Shown: piece by piece, positions 1-61,269 of the stretch | Numbering within the stretch: the stretch's first letter is position 1 | Layout: every line of letters begins with the position of its first letter | Assembly: GCF_026151205.1 (NCBI RefSeq) | Contig: NC_087075.1 | Location: 5,970,858-6,034,857 of the forward strand | Direction: 5' to 3' | DNA: 64,000 bases | DNA from: Bolinopsis microptera | Lineage: Eukaryota; Ctenophora; Tentaculata; Lobata; Bolinopsidae | Position numbers and translations under genes: made by a program | The notes under the pieces: model-generated | Seen by the model: the letters and a program-made list of their open reading frames with translations, nothing else | Databases searched by the model: none | What the model was told of the DNA's origin: nothing

Positions 1-1943
1 AGAAGACTCGACAAAAGCAGATTGACCCCTCAAGTGACCCAAGAGTGGACAGTGCAAGGAGGGGACTGTTCTTGGCCAAGGACCAATACCATCAGGAGCC
101 TTGTGAGGAGAAGAGAGAGGAAGTCGCCACTAAAAAGGATTTGTTAAAGGCCTGCTACAAAGAGGTAGAGGAGGAGATCCTGAAAGGAAAGATCAGGAAA
201 GTTGAGGATACTGCTGATCGTTGTAAGAACAAGGAATCCTGGAAGCTTGTCAACGATATTTCAGGGAGGACAAATCCCAGCTGTGGACTCGTGGAAGGGG
301 GCAGCTCAACAGAACGTCTTGAGAACTGGAGGAAGCACTTCTCTGGGTTACTTGGACAGCCACCCACAGTCCCTGACAATAGTATTCCGATCAGGAATAT
401 ACACCCTCCACTGAATATAGAGGATGGCCCGTTCACCATTGAGGAACTACGTCTTGCCAAAAAGCAGATAGTAGAAGGCAAAGCTTATGGTGATGATGGT
501 ATCTCACCTGAAGTGATGAAGAGGGTGGACATCGATGACGTCATCCTGAAGTTCTGCAACGATGCATTATGTGATGGTCTCATGCCCGATCAATGGAAGC
601 TCAGTAATATTGTTCCTGTGCCAAAGAAAGGGGACCTCACTAAGACCGACAACTACAGAGGAATATCTCTGACATCGATAGTCAGTAAAACTCTGAACAA
701 AATGTTGCTGAACAGGATGAAGCCAAGTCTTGAGGAAGTTTTAAGGGACAACCAGAATGGCTTTAGACCTGGGCGCTCTACAACATCGCACATCCTTGCT
801 CTACGAAGAATTATGGAGGGTGCTAGAGCCAAAAATCTTAAGGCCACCATGGTTTTCATTGATTTCAAAAAGGCGTTCGATAGTGTGCATAGAGGTTTGC
901 TCATGAAGATATTAAAAGCATATGGCATACCAGAAGCCATAGTGCGGCTCATTGAGGGTATCTATACGAGCACAAAGGCTAAAGTAGTTACAGCCGATGG
1001 TATAACAGAAATTTTTGATATCCTGGCTGGAGTACTGCAAGGAGACACTCTTGCCCCGTACTTGTTCATTATCGTGATTGACTATATCATGACAGTGACT
1101 ATAGACGATGATGACTCGGACTCTGGGTTTACCCTCAGGCCTGCACGGAGTAGAAGGATTGGTGCCGAGAAGATCGCAGACGTCGAGTTTGCAGATGATG
1201 TTGCCCTTATCACTGATACCATTGAAGGGGCAAAACTACTCCTGGACAGGCTTGAGAAAGCAGCACTGAGTGTTGGGCTAGCCATGAACGGCTCTAAAAC
1301 TAAGTTCATGACTCTGAACATGACAGAGGAGGCGAGTAGTCTTAATAGCTGTTCTGGAAATCAGCTGGAAAAGGTGACAGACTTTGTTTACCTTGGAGCT
1401 TGGATAGCAACAACAGAGAGGGACCTGCGGGTCAGAAAAGCTAAGGCTTGGGCAGCCTGCCACAAGCTAAAGAAGATGTGGAAGTCTGACCTTAGAAGAG
1501 GACTAAAGATCCGTCTATTTGTTGCTACTGTGGAGTCAATACTTCTTTATGGTTCTGAAACCTGGACGTTGACAGAGCAATTGAAGAAACGCATTGATGG
1601 CTGCTACACTAGAATGCTAAGGATGGCACTTAATGTGGATTGGAAGCAGCGAAAAACCAACAAAGAAGTCTATGGCAACCTACCGAGAGCAACCATGAAG
1701 ATCCAAGAGCGCAGGATGCGACTAGCAGGCCATATCCACCGGCACCCAGAACTAGTCGCAAACCGCTTGCTACTCTGGGAACCAACTCATGGGGTGCGGA
1801 GTAGGGGGAGACCAGCCATGACCTATGTTGATAGCCTACGAGCTGACACGGGTCTCAACGACACTGGAGAAATGGGCGGACTTATGGCGGATAGAGTTTT
1901 ATGGAGACAGCGCATCAATACTCGGACGCTGAAGCCGCCTTAA
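1..1943 (+). CDS. RTE-type LINE reverse transcriptase, 5' cut by window edge
   Basis: The frame is open from base 3 to the TAA at 1941-1943, so the ORF continues beyond the left edge; no start codon needs to lie here. Reverse transcriptase blocks appear in order: a PVPKKGD/NYRGISL block near residue 190, GFRPGRSTTSHI near 240, the catalytic FIDFKKAFDSVH near 275, GVLQGDTLAPYLF near 335 and the catalytic FADD at residues 382-385 (counted from base 45). The tail has YGSETWTL, the RRMRLAGHI block and a GRPAMTYVDSLRAD block, which are typical of the C-terminus of RTE-like endonuclease/reverse-transcriptase LINEs. The endonuclease domain is expected upstream and is not in the window. No stop or frameshift breaks the visible part, so this copy may be young. 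RTE is the best clade fit; another endonuclease-type LINE clade is possible. Confidence 0.9.
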   Translation, partial: KTRQKQIDPSSDPRVDSARRGLFLAKDQYHQEPCEEKREEVATKKDLLKACYKEVEEEILKGKIRKVEDTADRCKNKESWKLVNDISGRTNPSCGLVEGGSSTERLENWRKHFSGLLGQPPTVPDNSIPIRNIHPPLNIEDGPFTIEELRLAKKQIVEGKAYGDDGISPEVMKRVDIDDVILKFCNDALCDGLMPDQWKLSNIVPVPKKGDLTKTDNYRGISLTSIVSKTLNKMLLNRMKPSLEEVLRDNQNGFRPGRSTTSHILALRRIMEGARAKNLKATMVFIDFKKAFDSVHRGLLMKILKAYGIPEAIVRLIEGIYTSTKAKVVTADGITEIFDILAGVLQGDTLAPYLFIIVIDYIMTVTIDDDDSDSGFTLRPARSRRIGAEKIADVEFADDVALITDTIEGAKLLLDRLEKAALSVGLAMNGSKTKFMTLNMTEEASSLNSCSGNQLEKVTDFVYLGAWIATTERDLRVRKAKAWAACHKLKKMWKSDLRRGLKIRLFVATVESILLYGSETWTLTEQLKKRIDGCYTRMLRMALNVDWKQRKTNKEVYGNLPRATMKIQERRMRLAGHIHRHPELVANRLLLWEPTHGVRSRGRPAMTYVDSLRADTGLNDTGEMGGLMADRVLWRQRINTRTLKPP

Positions 1944-1959
1944 GTCAAGTAAGTCAAGT
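1944..1959 (+). repeat. Short repetitive LINE 3' tail
   Basis: Directly after the LINE stop there is an AAGTC-rich repeat (taagtcaagtaagtcaagtc), after which sequence shared with Helitron family A resumes. Short tandem tails are usual at 3' ends of RTE-like LINEs and mark the insertion junction. Confidence 0.55.
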
Positions 1960-2152
1960 CATTTGGGTCACAAAATGATCAATTAAACCACTTACCACCG
2001 ACCGATTTGAAAACCTTATTCATTTGGCTTCGTCGGAGTTTTGTCGGCACTATACCGAAAAAAACCAGTCCCGTATCTCTTACCGTTTTCTTGATTTAGC
2101 CGTTAGGAAATTACACGCGAACGAACACATATTTTGAGATTATTAGTATAGA
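1958..2152 (-). mobile_element. Helitron family A, 5'-end relic interrupted by the LINE
   Basis: This stretch matches, in reverse orientation, 9556-9675, and matches 12925-13158 and 56426-56573. Read on the minus strand it starts with TCTATACTAATAATCTCA, a typical Helitron 5' terminus, and carries the shared block around 1980-2100. Homology stops exactly where the LINE tail begins, so the LINE inserted into this element. Confidence 0.6.
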
Positions 2153-5052
2153 ATATAGATTACGCATGCACGAACCGTCTAGGAGCGTATAATAATAATA
2201 ATAATAAGCTTATAGTATGATACAAACAGTAAATATACAAGGAAACGAGTAAACTGTATGGATACATAGCCTTGTCAAGTTTCAGTGACTGGATATGCCG
2301 AATTTAATTAGAACAGATAATATTGATAAAGTTGTCATAATGTCGGACAAAAACTGAAGAAAACGTCAACACTCTAAAATAATTTTGAAAATGCTGCGCT
2401 GTAATTATTGCCGTCAGTGCGGTCCGATCCCTCTAAAGCACTAAAGCGAGCGAATTAGTAAGAGCCCTGTAATTATAGTGTCATCAACTGACCCTGGTTT
2501 CACGTCTCTATCTAGTATCTACAACCCCATAAAATTCCTAAAAGTAAGAGCGACGAATTTCCTAATAAAGATACAATTTTTGGCTTTAGCGGATAGGAAT
2601 CTATTAAAATAATATGTATATAAATAATAATTATGCTTTATATTCTGTCATGAGTCCACAATCAAGATTGATAAAAAGTATTTGATAAACTAATTACAAC
2701 ACTACAAATCTATTGAATTTATTGAGAACGTTACAGAAGGAATTTATTTTATGTAGTTTGAGGGGTCCTCACTCTTCTATAACGTCCAACAATGGCGTTT
2801 CTTCAACATTCATTATTCTAATTTGACACCGAGGATTGGTATTGTTCTTTCTATAACTGTATCATAAAATGGTTCTGCTGCCCGCCTACTTCGAGTGTTT
2901 CCCTTGTTTGAAATAATATATATTTTCACTCAAATGCGAGTGTTTTCAACGCGCTACAAACTGCTAAACTAAAATATATTAAGAGCTATTATGATTGATT
3001 GATTGATAGATTGATTGCAGATTCATTGATGATTCATACTGCATACATGATTCATGAAACTAAGAGTTGGATAAATACGTTATGGTTGCTTTGTACTAAA
3101 TTATATATATTTATATGCATTATTACCCGATATAAAACGCATCGCCGCCGATTTAATATCCTTATGCAAAGTTGTTAAATCATTGAAGTTAATCTTCGAT
3201 TTACGAGATTTAATTAAATTATAAAATATCGCGACATAATGCAAAACGGATAACTGATAATCCATATCTTACAATATATTGGATTATTGAGATCGTCTTA
3301 AGAAGCTGGATCTGCTTGCTCTTAACTATGGTTACTGTTAGGATCAAATGTTTTTCATGAGGTAACATCAAAAATATCGGAAAGTAGAATTACTATAAAA
3401 AATTAGGGAAAAAATACAAAAGTTCATTATTATTATCATCAGATTAAAAAACAATAGAGGTCTTGTCTAATGGATAACGTGTGATTAACGTGTGAAGCTG
3501 GATCACAATCCCTCAACAGATTAAAATTGAGTCACTCTAGTCACGTATTATACACAGTACACGCGATGTGTTAGAACTAGAATCTTATTGATGTGAAGTT
3601 GTAGAGTTATGAAGTCATAATATTGCACTGAATACTCTAGTTCAAATTAGCTGACCACCAGCTCAACTAGTCCCAGTAATCCTACGTCGATCTAAATGTA
3701 AAAGCGTTTATGAGGATTATTCTAGGTTTGTAAAACCGTGAGACATTACATTTACAGCGTGAGACGCATTGAAAATTGATTGTCGTGTTAAACTAAACAA
3801 TTGTGTAGCCCAACGTTGTATACTACGGTGATTAATGATCCAACATAAGATAAAGGCTGCAAATTTGGCGAATTGTCCAGCTTAATTGCAGTGGCTTTTG
3901 TATCAAAATTTGCCGCACTTAAAAAGGGTTAATGTTTAGGCAGGTACGTGGTGCCTATTGTTAGGGAACTGAGTTATATGACCACCATTTACGTCATCAG
4001 ATTATTAATATGCAAGATTGAATGTCCCGAAAAAAGTTCATTACAGCCTTCTCAAAATCAATAAGAACAGTACTACCAGCGGAATCACACTATTTTCAAA
4101 ATATTACCGCACCTATATGTTGCCTCTGTCAGGAAGCTTCGACCCTTCCCATCAGGAAGAGTACACGTAACATGGGTTAAACATTCTTTGAAATGGTAAC
4201 AAGTTGAAATAGTTCAATCAGCATTACGAAATATCAAGAACTCAACAGTTTTTAATGATGTCCTTTAAAAGCTTAAACTATGATAAGCAGTCGGTTAAGA
4301 CTGCTTTTTAAACGAGTTTAACCGGTTGTTCTAGCGTGGATTTAGATATTAAAGATAGCATCTATAAGATTCTAAAGCCAGTGTCGTAACAATTCACAGT
4401 AGTAACGATATCTAATCGTCGTTGATAATCACAGAGCCATAGCAGCCAGCAGTGCGGCCGGGAAGCTCCTCTCTTAGAGTTAGAGTAAAAAGACTAAGAG
4501 ATTAGCTTTGATATAATCTATTTTAAATGTTCCACTGTAAGAGTCATAAGATGAAATCCGCCTGATAGATCGGCTTTGCTGTTTCCTAATTATAACCCAA
4601 AGCCAAACCATAAACCAAATTCTAACCTTTCCCAAACCCGGAGACCCCATTCTGTACAATATTAATCCTAACATTTGCAAGAAAGTAAGCATTTAAGCAA
4701 TTAAAAGATTTCTATAGAGAAGCGGGTGGACAGAGACCTAACATATCAGAGGAGAGGTGGTTGTCCAGGAATCCGGACAGGAATCAGACTGATTTCACAT
4801 TTTTGTTGATTTGGCATTTGCAGATGGACAGTAGGAAACTGTTTTAATAAAGGAAAGGAATATTTATGCACAAAACAAGTATGCATGGGATGCAGCCAAG
4901 TATGGAGACAAATATGCATTATGCAGCCGGCCTTTAATATGACGTTGGGTAAGTACTCAAATAGGTGACCTTTCCTGTGCACTGTGCAGCTTCGGGCAAA
5001 TATAATAGGAATCCTAAAGACTTCCCCGATAGTAACGGCTTAATGGGCCGCA
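2153..5052. other. AT-rich stretch without recognised gene
   Basis: Only short random frames are present. It holds small simple repeats: (AAT)n near 2191-2205 and a GATT repeat near 2994-3016. No domain, splice-supported exon or RNA gene was recognised. Confidence 0.6.
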
Positions 5053-5128
5053 TTGCAGGAACCCGTCAGTAATATGGCAACAAATTTATATATACAATAT
5101 ATATCGTCTCGCTTGATACATAGTAAGA
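5053..5128 (-). mobile_element. Micro-Helitron of family B, about 76 bp
   Basis: On the minus strand it starts TCTTACTATGTATCAAGCGA, very close to the 5' end of the family B copies at 56653 and 59107, and is preceded by A. After about 45 bp it passes a GCCATATTACTGAC block also found in family B and then a GGGTTCCTGC block that matches the family 3' end. The final CTAG appears mutated to CAAT. It looks like an internal-deletion derivative that kept both termini. Confidence 0.5.
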
Positions 5129-5264
5129 TATAGTGAGACCTTTACATTAACGGTAAAGAGTTTAATTTATTTATAAACATAATAATTTTATGGGAAAAGG
5201 TTTCCATAAAAGTATTATTTGCAGCACTGTAGCGACCATCAGTCCAATCTGCATCAAACTTATA

Positions 5265-6707
5265 ATTTACCCTCTCACAGTCGGACTCCTGGATAAGTTA
5301 TAACCCTCTCACAGTCGGACTCCTGGATAAGTTATAACCCTCTCACAATCGGACTCCTGGATAAATTATAACTCTCTCACAGTCGGACTCCTGGATAAGT
5401 TATAACCCTCTCACAGTCGGACTCCTGGATAAGTAATAACCCTCTCACAGTCGGACTCTTGAATAAGTTATAACCCTCTCACAGACGGACTCCTGAATAA
5501 GTAATAACCCTCTCACAGTCGGACTCCTGGATAAGTTATAACCCTCTCACAGTCGGACTCCTGGATAAGTTATAACCCTCTCACAGTCGGACTCCTGGAT
5601 AAGTTATAACCCTCTCACAGTCGGACTCCTGGATAAGTTATAACCCTCTCACAGTCGGACTCCTGGATAAGTTATAACCCTCTCACTGTCAGACTCCTGG
5701 ATAAGTTAAAACCCTCTTACAGTCGGACTCCTGGATAAGTTATAACCCTCTCACAGTCGGACTCTGATAAGTTATAACCCTCTCACAGTCGGACTCCTGG
5801 ATAAGTTATAACTCTCTCACAGTCGGACTCCTGGATAAGTTATAACCCTCTCACAGTCGGACTCCTGGATAAGTAATAACCCTCTCACAGTCGGACTCTT
5901 GAATAAGTTATAACCCTCTCACAGACGGACTCCTGAATAAGTAATAACCCTCTCACAGTCGGACTCCTGGATAAGTTATAACCCTCTCACAGTCGGACTC
6001 CTGGATAAGTTATAACCCTCTCACAGTCGGACTCCTGGATAAGTTATAACCCTCTCACAGTCGGACTCCTGGATAAGTTATAACCCTCTCACTGTCAGAC
6101 TCCTGGATAAGTTAAAACCCTCTTACAGTCGGACTCCTGGATAAGTTATAACCCTCTCACAGTCGGACTCCTGGATAAGTTATAACCCTCTCACAGTCGG
6201 ACTCCTGGATAAGTTATAACCCTCTCACAGTCGGACTCCTGGATAAGTAATAACCCTCTCACAGTCGGACTCCTGGATAAGTTATAACCCTCTCACAGTC
6301 GGACTCCTGGATAAGTTATAACCCTCTCACAGTCGGACTCCTGGATAAGTTATAACCCTCTCACAGTCGGACTCCTGGATAAGTTATAACCCTCTCACTG
6401 TCAGACTCCTGGATAAGTTAAAACCCTCTTACAGTCGGACTCCTGGATAAGTTATAACCCTCTCACAGTCGGACTCCTGGATAAGTTATAACCCTCTCAC
6501 AGTCGGACTCCTGGATAAGTTATAACCCTCTCACAGTCGGACTCCTGGATAAGTAATAACCCTCTCACAGTCGGACTCCTGGATAAATAATAACCCTCTC
6601 ACTGTCGGACTCCTGGATAAGTAATAACCCTCTCACATTCGGACTCTTGAATAAGTTATAACCCTCTCACAGTCGGACTCCTGGATAAGTTATAACCCTC
6701 CCACAGT
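5265..6707 (+). repeat. 34-bp satellite array, about 42 copies
   Basis: The unit reads roughly cctctcacagtcggactcct followed by ggataagttataac. Diagnostic variants recur at fixed offsets: an actctctcac unit at 5371 and 5811, and a ctgtcagac/gttaaaaccc variant pair near 5685, 6091 and 6397. This shows that blocks of about 9 to 13 units were duplicated. No open reading frame is possible across it because 34 is not a multiple of three and stops recur. Confidence 0.95.
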
Positions 6708-7380
6708 TTGAAATACTATATTATTGAGTATATTTTACCAAACTAAGAACTTCTTATTTCAGTGCAGAACTTCCTATTTTTCTGAGAACCCCTGAGAACA
6801 CTCTTACAGCACTGTATTTAAGCTTTTTGACATAATTCCAATATCTCCAGTTACGACAGATGAGGGATTTCCGTATTGTCAGCAAAATATATATAATATC
6901 GTATTTCCCTTCCTGTCACAAAATACTCCAAGTATTTATCACATGAGACCTAAAATGTGTGCCTTAGTGACCATACCAACTTAAACGGGAATAGTGGATC
7001 AACTGAAAAATTGGGCGACTCTTGTCAGACTCCGAAATTAGGTTCTGCGGACAATAGTTTTTGTCAAATCCTACCATACGATTTTCTTGAAACTTTCCAT
7101 AAAGTATGATGGTTATAGGACGAATAATCTGCGCAAGTTTGAGCGAATTTCTATCTGCCAAATTTGGGATGGGGGTTTTCCAATCAAAAATTATTTTTGA
7201 ATCTGAGTAATTCAGCATGGATTTCTCATTTTCTTCAAAAATTGTCCACTCAAAAATTTACCAAATCATTCTTCATAATCATATCAATGCTCAAAAGTCA
7301 AAATACTCAAAATCAATTTTTCAGAATGAGTTCTTCGCCTCTAATTAAATGAGAATTCAGCCATTTTCGTCAGGACTCTC
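6708..7380. other. Intergenic, part of a dispersed repeat
   Basis: No gene recognised. The segments near 7148-7171 and 7436-7475 match 34655-34715, so a dispersed repeat lies here, split by the poly-C tract in this copy. Short frames at 6964-7352 on both strands overlap this repeat and are not convincing. Confidence 0.45.
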
Positions 7381-7394
7381 AATATACTCATCCC

Positions 7395-7395
<1 letters not shown>

Positions 7396-7427
<32 letters not shown>

Positions 7428-7435
7428 ATATCACT
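7396..7435 (+). repeat. Poly-C tract, 40 bp
   Basis: An uninterrupted run of 40 C residues. The complementary G-run could form G-quadruplexes, and length is likely unstable. Confidence 0.97.
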
Positions 7436-7469
7436 TCAAACACAAGAAAATAGTGCTGTCGGACAAGAG

Positions 7470-7676
7470 TCATGTTATTGTTACCGTGGAGCAACTCCCT
7501 AAACTCCCTATTATACTGTGGGACGTAGAGTTGTGTCTGAAGGTGGAATAGTGAATAAGACCCAATCCCCCATAAAGATCATTCTGTAACAAAGGTGGGA
7601 CTCCTTTTTTGAGAATCCAGCTTTCGCGGTTGTCGTTAAAATTCTTGCCGCTGAAAAAGAAAGGGCCGAAGTCCAT
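7470..7676 (-). CDS. Hypothetical small ORF, 68 aa
   Basis: A frame with a real ATG at 7674-7676 and a natural stop, beginning MDFGPFFFSGKNF. Composition is protein-like (KKGVPPLLQNDLYGGLGLIH) rather than low-complexity, but no family was recognised. It may be an exon, a fragment of a repeat, or chance. There is no neighbouring exon that I can join to it. Confidence 0.2.
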   Translation of the reverse strand: MDFGPFFFSGKNFNDNRESWILKKGVPPLLQNDLYGGLGLIHYSTFRHNSTSHSIIGSLGSCSTVTIT

Positions 7677-7782
7677 ATCACTTCCTCCCGTGCATTAAGA
7701 TACCCAGAAAAACAGAATAATAAATAAACTCTGCAGAGAATAGACTTTTATGACTGAAAAATCTCAATATAGACCTTTGTTA

Positions 7783-8022
7783 TCACGAGACTTGTTTAAA
7801 CCACGTGTTATACCACGTGATCGTAAGATCAATATTTGAGAACATTGACACAAACGAGAGAAAAACATATTTCTTTTGTGACATGCTGATAGCGTGAACA
7901 TTATGCCTTATATGAAGTACATTTTTTTGCATGTCCCCTCGGCTATCACTCCTCTTTTGTTCTAACTTTAAATGCGAGTCAAAGTTTGAACACGCGTCAA
8001 GGGATTCGGACGCGGAGCTCAT
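7783..8022 (-). CDS. Hypothetical ORF or first exon
   Basis: Begins with ATG at 8020-8022 (MSSASESLDACSNFDSHLKL) and stays open for 79 codons. The first 35 residues look more protein-like than the rest. No domain recognised and no clear downstream splice partner. Could be chance. Confidence 0.15.
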   Translation of the reverse strand: MSSASESLDACSNFDSHLKLEQKRSDSRGDMQKNVLHIRHNVHAISMSQKKYVFLSFVSMFSNIDLTITWYNTWFKQVS

Positions 8023-8059
8023 ACGATAAAAGAAGTTAAAAGCAGTCGTACTGGAGTGG

Positions 8060-8447
8060 GTTGCGAAACTCGAGCGTGCTAAATCACTCTACAGTCGATC
8101 TTCGAGATTGTTCTAAAAGGGCCCCCGATGGTTGTAACCAATTTCAATCGATGCATTTTCGGACGCTGATTCCAAATCACCCCCCATGGGTTAAAATGCT
8201 CTCCTGACGAGATATTGGCGAAAAACTGTATCGATCACGTGATATGACCGTATAAGGAAGTTAGTCTAATTTCTCGTTAGGGTTAGGGTTTTAGCATATG
8301 TTTTTGTTAAGGATTGGGTTAGGGTTAGGGTTGGGATCAGATTAGAGGGTTAGGGTTTCAAAAAGTCGTTCAGAACCAGCTAGAGAACGGGTTAAAAAAG
8401 TCACGGGACAGTCGAGTTTAGAGTGATTAATCATCATCCTGCGCAAC
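8060..8447 (+). mobile_element. MITE with imperfect terminal inverted repeats and TTAGGG motifs
   Basis: The ends are related inverted repeats: GTTGCG near 8060 with an aaatcactcta block, mirrored by agtgattaat and CGCAAC ending near 8447. It has no coding capacity. Several TTAGGG units occur inside (8277-8345). A second copy, in reverse orientation, fills the loop of the foldback element at 59721-60134, proving it is mobile or was captured. Superfamily not determined because the target duplication is unclear. Confidence 0.6.
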
Positions 8448-13158: not shown

Positions 13159-15190
13159 TTAAATGTATAGACACTCCTTTATTACACCCTTTTCACTCAC
13201 TTCATTTCACTCGATTCACTTCATATTTTATTACTACTGACTACAGTATCTGCCAAAACGAACATGGCCCATGTAGGAAGGGGCCTTGATGTTGTCTCCC
13301 ACTTGGACCTGCATCCGTAGCTGACGGTCGGCCTCCACTCTCTAAAAACTTACCTTTAGTGAAGGCCGATGGTCAACAAATAGCGATGTTAGAGCTTGGT
13401 GTGAACAAATCCTGACCTCCTTTTACACCATTGGAGACGACTCTCGCAAATGCGAGAGAAAAGATCCCGGGGAGGGCACCATTGGTTTTGGTAGGTTGAA
13501 TATTTTTTTTAAATGTATAGACACTATAATCCTGACTGAGAGAATTCCTGAATAATGACAGAAACTGGCTATCAATCAGCTAAAATGTCAATTTGAAAGT
13601 GGAACAGTCCAGTGAAGAAGAAGCAGTCTCACTCCTATGCCAAAAATAGTACAGCAAGAATAAATTCCGTCATTTTACGATATCCATTTGATTAATTGTA
13701 CCGTCTGCAACAAATTGTCGGACAAATATCTATGATTTTAGAATAATTATGATATTGGAAGAAGTTTGGACTGCGAATACTGAAAAGTGGTGCTTTACCT
13801 CAATTTTGAGAATTTGTTTAATCAATTTCTTGGAAGGGAGTCATTTCAATGGAAGAATGTCTCATTTATGATTTATTGATCATATGTTTTTTTCAACTAT
13901 GACACAATTTTACTGTGAGAAAATCCTAGACCTAAAGACAACAGAGACCTAAAACAATAGGTGAAAATTCAAATTACAAAAATGCAAATTACAAAAATGC
14001 AAATTACAAAAATGCTAATTACAAAATCGTTTCCCACAACGTTACTGCAAAACACCCAGCTAAATGAAGTTAATGTCCTTATTTATTGACTTTTTTATAA
14101 CACGTTTAATGATATTTCACTTGATGGTAAGTTACAACGTTTGCTGTTCTACCAGAGAGCCTATAAAAAGAAGATACTTTACTTTACTTTACTTAACGTT
14201 GTTTAGCTGCAAGGCAGCAGGGTCATCTATGAAAACCACCCTTTTTCTTTAACTTCGGACAACCATGGCCGGCACCAGCACTTACAGGAAACCGAAGGAT
14301 CGATAACTAAGGCCAGCAATACTATATAATTGGTGTTAAGTTTTCTGCTTAAATACTCCACTAGTGTTCTGCTGTTTCATTGCCATAATTATTAATTAGT
14401 CCCCTGGGGATTGATATCATGAAACCTTAGGTTGGACAACTATAACCGTTAATTTTACTTGTTATCGTGGGAACTAAAAGAAATGAAGCACTGAGATTTG
14501 AGAATAAGATTACCTAAACAGAGGAATATTTACCTGGGGACCCCAGGCTATAATGTTCATAAACATAAATAAAGATTCGGCGGAATGACAGGCTGAGCGC
14601 CGCCCAGTAATGAACATTGAACATGTAAATCGAAACAACGTATATTATGAAAGTACTAAAATAGATCATCGCTGTCAGATACATAGAAAATCATCTCAAG
14701 AAACGTGGCAACACATTTAAAAGCGTATTCCATTAGATTCAGAGTCAACAGTCTGGAATTATATGCTCATTCCAATTATAAAAGAAGCGCATTTGAAAAC
14801 TAATCGGACTGAATTCAATAGAATACAGAATTGAACATTGTACTTGTCTATTGTCTAATAAACATGCATCAAACGAATAGAATAAAAAATTACAACAATT
14901 TGACAATGTCTGAAAAGAGTAAAAGTCAGACTAAAAGGTTAAGAATCTAGTAGTTAGTACGTTAGAAACAAGTAGAGAGTATATTCTTGCAAGTCTTCAG
15001 GAATCAATAGTTTAAACGTTTCTAACAACAACGTCAAGCTTTTTGGACTTGACGTGTTTGGGAGTGAGTCTGAATTGGTGTTTAGTTATTTATTTAAGAA
15101 AATAAACCAAGACAGATTCGATGAAATCTCCATTAGAGTACGATATGTGGTCAGAAACTTAAACACTGACTAAGTCATTCTAGAATAACG
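13159..15190. other. Intergenic, short repeats only
   Basis: Holds a 15-bp tandem (aaattacaaaaatgc, about 4 copies, 13968-14030) and a family D copy near 14534-14612. A frame of about 65 codons without ATG near 13370-13570 looks coding-like (WCEQILTSFYTIGDDSRK) but no family was recognised. Confidence 0.4.
14534..14612 (+). repeat. Dispersed repeat family D
   Basis: Contains the ccagg palindrome, a gttcataaa block, a gcggaatgacag block and gcgccgcccagt. It matches 45950-46020 in reverse orientation and its left part is found at 9530-9555. Nature unknown. Confidence 0.5.
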
Positions 15191-17999: not shown

Positions 18000-18615
18000 G
18001 TCACATAATAACGCATAATAAAGATATTGTAACTAAAAAGTATCGAGCTTTACAATCGCAATCCTTAGGCAACAAAAGGTTAACGCGTGAAATAACTTAT
18101 ATATAGAATATAAATATCTAATAACTATAACAGATATAGAAAATTATACAACAAAGGGCACTCTATCACAGGATCACAGGATCGCAGGAAGGACGGTCAA
18201 CAAAGAGATTTTAAAATATGTGCATATTTCAAATTCAAATTAGACACGCAGTCAGGTTTAAACAGCTATAATTCCTTCTGTTCCAGTGTGTCGCTGCTAG
18301 TGTTATTTACTGTTCCAATCTTAGACAGACATCAAAAACAAGGAAATGTTATAGAAGATACGTCAGCATGTGAGGAACACTAATGATAGATTTTCTGGTT
18401 CCCTTGGAATTTTCAACACAAAAATTGCATGGTAAACATCTGTTATTTGGTCAAAAGATCAAAAATTAAAAAACCAAGATTTACAAATATCAATACTATG
18501 TCACTGTTCTTGTAAGAGTATGTTTACATCATCAACACACAGAACGTGCAAATTTGGGTTTACAGTGCAACACATAACATACGAAGTCTGAAAGCGTGTA
18601 GCTGCATTTATAACA
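18000..18615. other. No gene seen
   Basis: AT-rich spacer between MITE E and the GA tracts, with no recognised feature. Confidence 0.5.
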
Positions 18616-18616
18616 C

Positions 18617-18960
<344 letters not shown>

Positions 18961-19585
18961 CCAAAAATGTAACCTGGACACGCTCTGACACGAGTCTAAC
19001 ACTAACAGCCGCTAGCGAGAAGTCCATTATACCGAAACATGTCATGTCATTCGTGCAGACTGCAAATAGCGACAAATATTTGCTAAATGAAGTTTAATAT
19101 TTGTAGGGTTTGAGGCAGTATCAAGTCTTATTGCAGGAGACTAAGGCTTCGAAGCTAAACACCAACTTCAAACTATTAACAAACTTCATATACTTTTAGT
19201 ACGTTGGAATATAATCAATCATGGACGCCGGATGGTTGAACAGACAGAAAAATACGGCTCTATAGTGACGAACAATTCAATTGTTGATGAAAGATATTCA
19301 TATCCAGGTATGTATTAATATGATTAGTTGGATTTATCGAGATTTCTGAAAATTCCTAACCAAAGACAAATCTAAAGATATTATATACTTTTAATTAGGC
19401 GAAGGTCAAATGTGACGATGTTTAAAATTCACGTTCGGTAGCGTACTTAAGTGCCGCCCTCACGCCGCCTCTAGGCTCCAAAAAGCAATGTAATTCTGCT
19501 ATTGTTAATTTGTATTTAGTATTAAACGACATATTTTGACTGCTCGCGCATCCGCAAAGTTAGATACGTCATACAGTAACTGACA

Positions 19586-22192: not shown

Positions 22193-22367
22193 AACATAAT
22201 TTTAACAGTATCGTATATACAAGAGCAGTGAGCACAATATGCTGTCGACCCATAAGAGCTCACTACGCAGTGTTCGGACAGGAATATACTTACTACGCTT
22301 TAAACTGCAACACATTAAACGTGAACTTCATTAAAAGGTGGACATACTTACAATTTACAAAAATGCT

Positions 22368-22912
22368 TGAGGTATGTAGTGAGCTTGAGGAATGTAGTCA
22401 GCTTGAGGAATGTAGTCAGCTTGTGGAATGTAGTCAGCTTGAGGAATGTAGTCAGCTTGAGGAATGTAGTCAGCTTGAGGAATGTAGTCAGCTTGTGGAA
22501 TGTAGTCAGCTTGAGGAATGAAGTCAGCTTGAGGAATGTAGTCAGCTTGAGGAATGTAGTCAGCTTGAGGAATGTAGTCAGCTTGAGGAATGTAGTTAGC
22601 TTGAGGAATGTAGTCAGCTTGAGGAATGTAGTCAGCTTGAGGAATGTAGTCAGCTTGAGGAATGTAGTCAGCTTGAGGAATGTAGTCAGCTTGAGGAATG
22701 TAATCATCTGGAGGAATGTAGTCAGCTTGTGGAATGTAGTCAGCTTGAGGAATGTAGTCAGCTTTTGGAATGTAGTCAGCTTGAGGAATGTAGTCAACTT
22801 GAGGAATGTAGTCAGCTTGAGGAATGTAGTCAACTTGAGGAATGTAGTCAGCTTGAGGAATGTAGTCAGCTGGAGGAATGTAGTCAGCTTGAGGAATGTA
22901 GTCAGCTGGCTA
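22368..22912 (+). repeat. 18-bp minisatellite, about 30 copies
   Basis: Unit cttgaggaatgtagtcag with point variants (gtggaa, tttgga, caactt). As 18 is divisible by three, several frames on both strands are open over hundreds of bases (LEECSQ, RNVVSL, KLTTFL repeats). None has flanking domain evidence; the array is best read as non-coding. It ends about 70 bp left of the Gypsy element. Confidence 0.95.
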
Positions 22913-22984
22913 ACAGGAACATGACAACTAGAAGTGTAAAAGATCCCACGAGTCAACTATTGGTTAATGTAATGTAGTATCAAT

Positions 22985-40734: not shown

Positions 40735-40790
40735 GGTTATTTTACGATAGTCTAAACGCGATAGCTAGCGCTAGTCGCTACCCAAAGTTT
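40735..40790 (+). mobile_element. Degenerate foldback-family fragment
   Basis: Reads ggttattttacgatagtc, then aaacgcgatagctagcgct, resembling the end of the foldback element at 59131 and the fragment at 58045. Confidence 0.5.
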
Positions 40791-56652: not shown

Positions 56653-56965
56653 TCTTACTATATATAAAGCGAGACGATATATATGGATGGATCCGTGCCA
56701 TTTTACTGACACCACGGCATCAACTTTAACGCCACTTTCCGCAAAAACCGTAAAAGATATACAACTGAAACTTTTTTGACTGGGTCAAATGCCTTTATGG
56801 CCTTCAAATCAGCATAAAAAAATAAAATATTGGCCAAGGAATAAGAATTTTAGTACCCAAAATTTGGACCCCCAAGTGGTGTCAAAAACGCGAATTAAAT
56901 AGATATTAATTATTTTAGTCTCTTGAGTCTTGACACCACTTTAGGGTTAGACGGGTTCCTGCTAG
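56653..56965 (+). mobile_element. Helitron family B, uninterrupted 313-bp copy
   Basis: Starts TCTTACTATATATAAAGCGA after A and ends TTCCTGCTAG before T, the A^T insertion signature of Helitrons. It carries the site AAGCGAGACGATAT intact, which serves as the empty-site reference for the foldback insertion at 59131. No coding capacity. Confidence 0.8.
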
Positions 56966-58044: not shown

Positions 58045-58110
58045 TATCGGTTCTTTTGCGATAGTGAGATAGTGTAAACGCGATAGCTAGCGCGATCCAG
58101 CGCTAACTGG
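58045..58110 (+). mobile_element. Foldback-family end fragment
   Basis: Contains ggttcttttgcgatagtg, as at 59131, then gcgatagctagcgcgatcca and gcgctaactgg. A solo end of the same family. Confidence 0.6.
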
Positions 58111-59106: not shown

Positions 59107-59130
59107 TCTTACTATATATAAAGCGAGACG

Positions 59131-60751
59131 GGTTCTTTTGCGATAGTCAAAACGCGACAACTAGCGCTGGATGGCGACAACTAGCGCTATCCAGCGCTAG
59201 TTGTCGCCATCCAGCGCTAGTTGTCGCTATCCAGCGCTGGATAACGCTGGCCAGCGCAAAATATATATGTTCGATAATTGTCGCTATCCAGCGCTAGTTG
59301 TCGCCATCCAGCGCTAGTTGTCGCCATCCAGCGCTAGTTGTCGCTATCCAGCGCTAGTTGTCGCTGGCTATGCGACACTGTCGCACGCGATAGTTTGCGA
59401 TGGCCAGCGCAACTGGCCATCGCAGAAAACAGTTCGATAACTAGCGCTGGATGGCGACAACTAGCGCTGGATAGCGACAACTAGCGCTGGCCATCGATAT
59501 CCAGCGCAAAATTTTTGCGCTATTACTCGTCAGCTAGCGCTGGCCAGCGCTAGCCAGCGCTAGTTGTCGCTATCCAGCGCTAGCCAGCGCTGGCCAGCGC
59601 TAGTTGTCGCTATCCAGCGCTAGCCAGCGCTAGTTGTCGCTATCCAGCGCTAGCCAGCGCAAGCCAGCGTTAGCCAGCGCAATGTATCAAAATCATATTG
59701 ATATACTTGCGATATTACTCGGATGATGATTAATCACTTTACAGTTGACTGTCACGTGCCTTTTTTAATCCATTCTCTGACTCTAGCTGGTTCTGAACGA
59801 CTTTTCGAAACCCCAACCCTCTAAGTCTAATCTGATCCCATTCCCAACCCTAACCCTAACCCAATCATTAACAAAAACATATGCTGAAACCCTAACAATA
59901 ACGAGAAATTAGACTAACTTCCTTATACGGTCATATCACGTGATCGATACATGTACAGTTTTTCGCCAATATCTCGTCAGGAGAGCATTTTAACCCTATG
60001 TCATGGGCCCAAGGGGGTTGATTCGGAATTAGCGTCCGAAAATACATCGATTGAAGTTGGACACAACCACCGGGGGCCCTTTTAGAACAATCTCGAACTC
60101 GAAGATCCACTGTAGAGTGATTTAGCACGCTCGATATTATATTAGTGTTACTCGTCAGCCAGCGCTGGCCAGCGCAATATAGTTGCGATATTACTCGTCA
60201 GCTAGCGCTGGCCAGCGCTGGCTAGCGCTGGCTAGCGCTGGCTAGCGCTGGTTAGCGCTGGCTAGCGCTGGTTAGCGCTGGCTAGCGCTGGCTAGCGCTG
60301 GCCAGCGCTAGCTGACGAGTAATAGCGCAAAAATTTTGCGCTGGATATCGATGGCCAGCGCTGGCCAGCGCTGGCTATCGCTTAGCGCTGGCCAGCGCTA
60401 GTTGTCGCTATCCAGCGCTAGTTGTCGCCATCCAGCGCTAGTTATCGAACTGTTTTCTGCGATGGCCAGTTGCGCTGGCCATCGCAAACTATCGCGTGCG
60501 ACAGTGTCGCATAGCCAGCGACAACTAGCGCTGGATAGCGACAACTAGCGCTGGATGGCGACAACTAGCGCTGGATGGCGACAACTAGCGCTGGATAGCG
60601 ACAATTATCGAACATATATATTTTGCGCTGGCCAGCGTTATCCAGCGCTGGATAGCGACAACTAGCGCTGGATGGCGACAACTAGCGCTGGATAGCGCTA
60701 GTTGTCGCCATCCAGCGCTAGTTGTCGCGTTTTGACTATCGCAAAAGAACC
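59131..60751. mobile_element. Foldback transposon, 1,621 bp, with 8-bp target duplication
   Basis: Starts GGTTCTTTTGCGATAGTC and ends with its exact complement. The outer arms (about 59131-59490 and 60390-60751) match base for base in my reading over more than 300 bp; the inner arms differ by indels. Arms are built of repeated gcgacaactagcgctgga-type units rich in the AGCGCT palindrome, and are more GC-rich than the surroundings. GCGAGACG flanks both ends (59123-59130, 60752-60759) and is single in the empty site at 56653-56965. No ORF of transposase type. Foldback elements of flies are related to P or hAT transposases; the 8-bp duplication allows either. Confidence 0.85.
59721..60134 (-). 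mobile_element. MITE copy in the foldback loop
   Basis: Reverse-complement match to 8071-8440 almost end to end, including the TTAGGG-type motifs and a gatatgaccgtataaggaag block. It lacks the outermost bases of the 8-kb copy. Confidence 0.75.
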
Positions 60752-61269
60752 GCGAGACGATATATATCCGTACCATTTTACTGACACCACGGCATCAACT
60801 TTATAACGCGACTTTCCGCAAAAACTGTAAAAGATATACAACTGAAACTTTTTTGACTGGGTCAAATGCTTTAATGGCCTTCAAATCAGTATGAAAAAAT
60901 AAAAAATAGGCCAAGAATTAACAATTTTAGTGCCCAAAATTTGGACCCCCAAGTGGTGTCAAAAACGCGAATTGAATAGGTAATAATTCATTTAGTCTCT
61001 TGAGACTTGACACCGGTCATACATCAGTATTCCGGCGGCAGTAAGGGTTAAACGGGTTTCTGCTAGTATTGGAAACGCGTCTAAGTGCTAAACGACTATG
61101 AAATATTTTACCTCTTTTTTTTTTCTTAGCAGAGTCTACCAATGGCCAACATATTTCACAAGTCTGTCAGGTACCGAGAAACATGAATGCAGGAGACCCT
61201 GCTAGTAGAACTAGTTTGGGACTTAGGTACACCGACCAAGGCCACTTTGCTTAAATACTTTATTATAGG

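Follow-up and report, generated by a model that had tools for sequence, protein, structure and literature searches.

A new family of foldback transposons with AGCGCT-unit arms in Bolinopsis microptera, and its candidate helpers

The foldback elements FB, Tetris, and Tm1 have long inverted arms that consist of tandem repeats and vary in length, and they include transposase-less copies, short derivatives, and target duplications, all of which also characterize the family described here (PMC4079207, PMC3169594). The target duplications are mostly 9 bp in Tm1 and 8 to 10 bp in Tetris, as opposed to 8 bp in the present family, and the same sources place foldbacks in rye, Arabidopsis, sea urchin, Chironomus, and root-knot nematodes, so that the original prediction went too far in calling such elements poorly known outside flies (PMC4079207, PMC3169594). 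Galileo, of the P superfamily, resembles the present family in its long repetitive arms and its deletion derivatives, and the lengthening of its arms has been ascribed to tandem repeats and the recruitment of core sequence (PMC3573991). Merlin elements share with the present family their 5'-GG ends and 8-bp duplications; the published features of Merlins comprise GG ends, duplications of 8 to 9 bp, inverted repeats of 24 to 462 bp, and, in some elements, internal tandem repeats (PMC8101967).

Three features set the new family apart from the FB-like elements: 8-bp duplications in 31 of 32 copies, GG ends, and palindromic AGCGCT units at 10 or 20 bp. The TU elements of sea urchin share the foldback structure and are described as having 8-bp duplications and 15-bp units, and the ends of Galileo differ from those of the new family. 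The kind of element is known, and the family is new.

The window analyzed here is a 64,000-nucleotide stretch of the B. microptera genome (contig NC_087075.1), and it contains a 1,621-bp foldback element, most of which is made up of the inverted arms (Table 1). The outer 363 bp of the two arms are exact inverted copies with zero mismatches, in agreement with the original prediction of arms identical over more than 300 bp; arm complementarity amounts to 369 nucleotides (nt) at 99%, and the inner arms are inverted at 86% or less. Both termini read GGTTCTTTTGCG and start with 5'-GG, and GGTTCTTTTGCGATAG is the end sequence of the family. Among the 51 AGCGCT words in the window, 48 sit in the element, and 38 of the 47 spacings between neighboring words are multiples of 10 (i.e., 10 or 20 bp), which bears out the description of the arms as composed of AGCGCT units. 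Tandem arrays of these units are present in the arms of both the window copy and its sister copies. In addition, bases 24 to 97 of the left arm form a palindrome (z = -15.3 versus shuffles for the folded 120-nt stretch). The sole ATG-initiated open reading frame (ORF) of at least 50 amino acids encodes 63 amino acids and runs from the right flank into the right arm, matching the earlier statement that no transposase is visible, and there are no Rfam matches in the window. Elsewhere in the window, positions 22325-22956 and 18504-19094 hold long short-period tandem repeats that are open in several frames.

Table 1. Coordinates of the foldback element, its insertion site, and related features in the window
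Feature	Position	Strand	Basis or remark
Foldback element, 1,621 bp	59131..60751		window sequence
Left tip, 23 bp	59131..59153	+	identical in 24 of 25 copies compared, all 25 selected by the 16-mer
Left arm, outer part, 10/20-bp AGCGCT unit arrays	59131..59499	+	
Right arm, outer part	60383..60751	-	
Left arm, inner variable array	59500..59711	+	
Right arm, inner variable array	60142..60382	+	
Palindrome inside left arm, 35-bp stem, 4-nt loop	59154..59227	+	folding
Left 8-bp target duplication, GCGAGACG	59123..59130	.	
Right 8-bp target duplication, GCGAGACG	60752..60759	.	
Helitron-like host repeat, foldback element 24 bp from its 5' end	59107..61066	+	flanks versus paralogue, 90%
Uninterrupted paralogue of host repeat, empty site	56653..56965	+	GCGAGACG once, at 56669-56676
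Related single end	58049..58093	+	exact 16-mer, then divergent
Older related single end	40735..40772	+	87% over 38 bp
Nested MITE-like element forming the core, 414 bp	59720..60133	+	
Left duplication of nested MITE, ATATTACT	59712..59719	.	
Right duplication of nested MITE, ATATTATA in window copy	60134..60141	.	ATATTAGT in most sister copies

The word GCGAGACG borders the element on both sides, and its only other occurrences in the window are at 56669 on the forward strand and at 5105 on the reverse strand. Removal of the element and one duplication leaves flanks that can be aligned with the paralogue at 90% across 290 columns. The paralogue carries the word once, as claimed, and provides an empty site 2.4 kb from the element. 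As judged by eye, both copies of the host repeat start at a TC preceded by an A and finish at a CTAG followed by a T, which are hallmarks of a Helitron; the label Helitron-like fits the proposed nesting of the element in a Helitron. Two additional family ends had been reported in the window: that placed at 58045 holds as an exact 16-mer beginning at 58049, and that at 40735 holds as the more diverged match listed in Table 1. For both, an exact partner end is absent from the window. That the 1,621-bp sequence is a foldback cut-and-paste element is virtually certain.

In the 264.65-Mb genome, there are 399 exact occurrences of the 16-bp tip, 206 on the forward strand and 193 on the reverse, against 0 for the reversed control; this corresponds to roughly two hundred copies of the family. 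When split by preceding base, 308 of the 399 ends were listed, and pairing these by position alone yields 87 inward pairs and 134 unpaired ends. The smallest listed pair spans 95 bp and the largest 11.4 kb. Of the 87 pairs, 39 are 1.3 to 1.8 kb long, 16 are 95 to 257 bp long, and the remainder lie between these classes or extend up to the maximum, so that "giant," as the element had been called, is too strong a word for the window copy. One 12.2-kb pair is doubtful and probably false, another end being situated only 0.8 kb away.

No transposase was detected in any of the copies read, suggesting that the family is probably moved in trans. Searches (tblastn) with seven Merlin proteins returned a best E value of 0.56 against 28 loci (L001 to L028) and 0.52 against six further stretches, and nothing at an E value of 0.001 against L067 and L068; the best match in the window (E = 0.058) is at 5216-5344, outside the foldback element. 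Copies L009 to L013 and L061 to L068, for all of which except L013 the ORFs were also listed, were considered as the autonomous partner and rejected, there being no Merlin match in them. The interior of L009 is satellite-like DNA (by eye), that of L010 contains a GIY-YIG gene with a Penelope-like look, and that of L061 contains a reverse transcriptase gene (Pfam). A nested element of approximately 7.9 kb, whose inverted ends are 311 bp long (93%), resides in an 11.4-kb foldback copy (L065:351-L066, joined 351-8249). The remaining insertions found inside copies are nested elements of ordinary kinds.

Among copies read at both ends, the window copy included, 31 of 32 possess a perfect 8-bp target duplication, and the remaining copy matches at 7 of 8 positions. 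This count leaves out L001 (the window copy again), L002 (the same place as L019), L006 (whose right end is absent from the locus), and L008, in which the 8-bp duplication becomes perfect only after a one-base shift of the left end. Other copies thus have the same ends and the 8-bp duplications that the original prediction expected of a transposon. A faulty assembly could mimic arms that are identical over 363 bp, and the structure might then represent an assembly inversion artifact or a local inverted duplication instead of a transposon; however, the same ends occur with 31 perfect duplications that differ in sequence, in copies on eleven contigs, and the paralogous empty site lies nearby. 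The perfect duplications of these dispersed copies exclude an assembly artifact, and we consider this explanation vanishingly improbable. With respect to the transposase, the literature assigns the majority of foldbacks to Mutator (PMC4079207), Mutator-type (MULE) genes are present in this genome (88 matches), and at the MULE locus L085 the inverted repeats are of the array type, with 15-bp units, but it is unlikely that a MULE transposase moved the element. The duplications are exactly 8 bp in all but one of the 32 copies, as opposed to mostly 9 bp, with a range of 8 to 10, in the Mutator foldback Tm1 (PMC3169594), and the nearest of 87 MULE matches is 4.3 kb from an end, and outside the element, among the 308 of 399 ends listed. 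Mutator elements in general make duplications of 8 to 11 bp, mostly 9 bp, and those of the present family measure 8 bp wherever they are perfect. The end in question belongs to a 230-bp mini copy, and the next-nearest MULE match is 8.7 kb away. The inverted part shared at MULE locus L084 begins CGACTCCTG with no duplication seen. At L085:820-4103, an element that has Merlin-type ends and shows the duplication TAATATTG encloses a MULE-type gene.

The original prediction envisaged a partner of the P or hAT type, and movement of the same element by a hAT or P-superfamily transposase, as in Galileo, is likewise improbable. The 8-bp length of the duplications favors it, hAT genes are present (150 matches among 365 candidates, of which 150 were scored), and Galileo is an instance of a P element with a foldback structure (PMC3573991). 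However, none of 148 hAT matches is located inside the 87 end pairs, a comparison that covered the 150 scored candidates out of 365 and the 308 listed ends out of 399, and the P-type transposase that distinguishes Galileo was not found here, as the P-element Pfam models PF21787 and PF12017 gave 0 matches, a weak point being that the controls were equally silent. Moreover, GG termini do not fit the known ends of hAT or P elements.

The whole is best explained, with fair probability, by a non-autonomous foldback-type terminal-inverted-repeat DNA transposon for which Merlin is the likeliest helper. Taken alone, the assignment of the helper to the Merlin class (IS1595-related) is about an even call, and Merlin fits because of the GG ends, the duplication length, and the style of the arms. 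There are 58 matches to Merlin genes in the genome, four of which were checked with Pfam. Six elements with Merlin-type ends that were read at both ends (L031, L033, L035, L045, L049/L059, and the outer element of L085, which has L035-type ends) have GG ends and 8-bp duplications; as two related families, the L029 and L035 types, account for five of them, about three families are represented. The L049/L059 element is itself foldback-shaped: its inverted array arms are 0.9 kb long and match at 90.7%, and its transposase is truncated. This Merlin-type element measures 5,416 bp (L049:238 to L059:2598; G000:C12:5852182-5857597) and has the duplication TAATCCAG, and a second ORF at L059:624-1616 encodes a CxxC...GHxxxxC stretch and PPAPQ repeats without a Pfam match. 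At L069:1601-3043, on the reverse strand, a 481-amino-acid frame joins part of a Merlin transposase to a PPAPQ-repeat protein.

Most of the 44 Merlin loci scanned, out of 58 matches (L029 to L058 and L069 to L082), likewise carry short-unit arrays: anywhere in the stretch fetched, 10/11-bp arrays occur in 32, 14/15-bp arrays occur in 6 more, and neither occurs in 6, compared with two 10/11-bp arrays in the 62 kb of the window outside the foldback element. The array units differ between Merlin families; they are mostly 11 bp, as opposed to 10 or 20 bp in the foldback family. Because the MULE locus L085 also has array-type inverted repeats, arrays are not specific to Merlin. In the 3.2 to 5.8 kb fetched for each of the 44 loci (of 58 matches in total), there was no 16-mer end at fewer than 3 mismatches and no locus with more than 2 AGCGCT words, and no Merlin match was within 7.7 kb of an end among the 308 of 399 ends listed. 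Unlike Merlin, the foldback family has no transposase in the copies read, and its tip shows no likeness to the Merlin tips read beyond GG. No DDE_Tnp_IS1595 transposase was found in the copies read, and none of the 44 loci scanned (of 58 matches) shows the ends of this family in the stretch fetched; because this defining transposase was sought and not found, Merlin membership is not claimed. A fragment resembling the inner arm (86%, approximately 100 bp) occurs inside the Merlin elements L041, L047, and L049, where it may reflect chance nesting; in L041, a 5'-truncated Merlin gene adjoins the arm-like stretch (likeness by eye, with a 13-bp exact match).

If the family moves in this way, a DDE transposase supplied in trans would bind the tip, and probably also the AGCGCT units that recur at even spacing along the arms, and would excise the element and then insert it with an 8-bp staggered cut. 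A somewhat more tentative proposal, for which the chances fall a little short of even, is that Merlin took foldback form in this genome, with several Merlin families bearing arms made of units near one helical turn that may be multiple transposase sites, and that the AGCGCT family represents the far end, all arms and no gene. A Merlin helper would bring the foldback form to a superfamily not linked to foldbacks in the literature searched, and Merlin would join Mutator and P as a superfamily reaching foldback architecture independently. In that literature, no paper names foldback elements together with Merlin and transposons, two papers on which the looser wording falls mention foldback and merlin once each, and the tip and unit words appeared in four papers, none of which is on transposons by its title.

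The numerous copies, intact duplications, empty site, mini copies, and two cores of this family allow the growth and shrinkage of arms to be read directly. The 120-bp mini copy L018, the only mini compared in this manner, consists of 97 bp matching the left arm of the window copy and 58 bp matching the end of the right arm, with an overlap of 35 bp. When the outer 300 bp of one arm are compared with those of the other, the longest direct repeat that they share exactly is also 35 bp. Since the overlap corresponds to this repeat, a deletion between direct repeats during repair would be enough to make L018. The arms share direct repeats because each is built of palindromic units, and the loss of the stretch between such repeats in repair would produce mini copies. 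Conversely, array slippage and the recruitment of core sequence would produce longer arms; in L011, the arms reach approximately 2 kb or more and include core sequence, comparable to the lengthening in Galileo.

The element has probably been mobile recently. The MITE differs by 3.0% between copies (gaps left out), and the left tips differ by approximately 1.0% (copies chosen by similarity left out); for the right tips, the median difference is 0, the mean is 5.3%, and the maximum is 29%. Strong homogenization of the arms was considered, and the case for it is weakened by the divergence of the MITE, left tips, and right tips. There is a weak target-site preference: the duplications start with C or G in 45 of 62 cases (31 duplications, both strands), and their middle is A/T rich.

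In the window copy, a nested MITE-like element with duplications of its own makes up the core. Among 14 sister copies, 12 have MITE duplications that agree at 7 or 8 of the 8 positions; the agreement is 6 of 8 in the window copy and L004, and 5 of 8 in L022. The MITE also stands alone, with the 8-bp duplication CTTTAAAG at L045:111-486 and as a solo relative, 83% identical, at 8070-8439 in the window, ruling out the window core as the remnant of an autonomous element. Another core occurs in L010, L011, L012, L064, L065/66, L067, and L068 and, in part, in L026 and L027, defining a second subfamily with the same arms and a different core. Over the initial 300 bp of the left arm, the seven fuller second-core copies are 94 to 99% identical to the window copy, as opposed to 74% for L026 and 82% for L027. 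Shared ancestry of the second core with the Merlin interior was considered and rejected, as the short matches also occur outside Merlins. Within the window, positions 14529-14610 match the second core at 75% over 100 columns.
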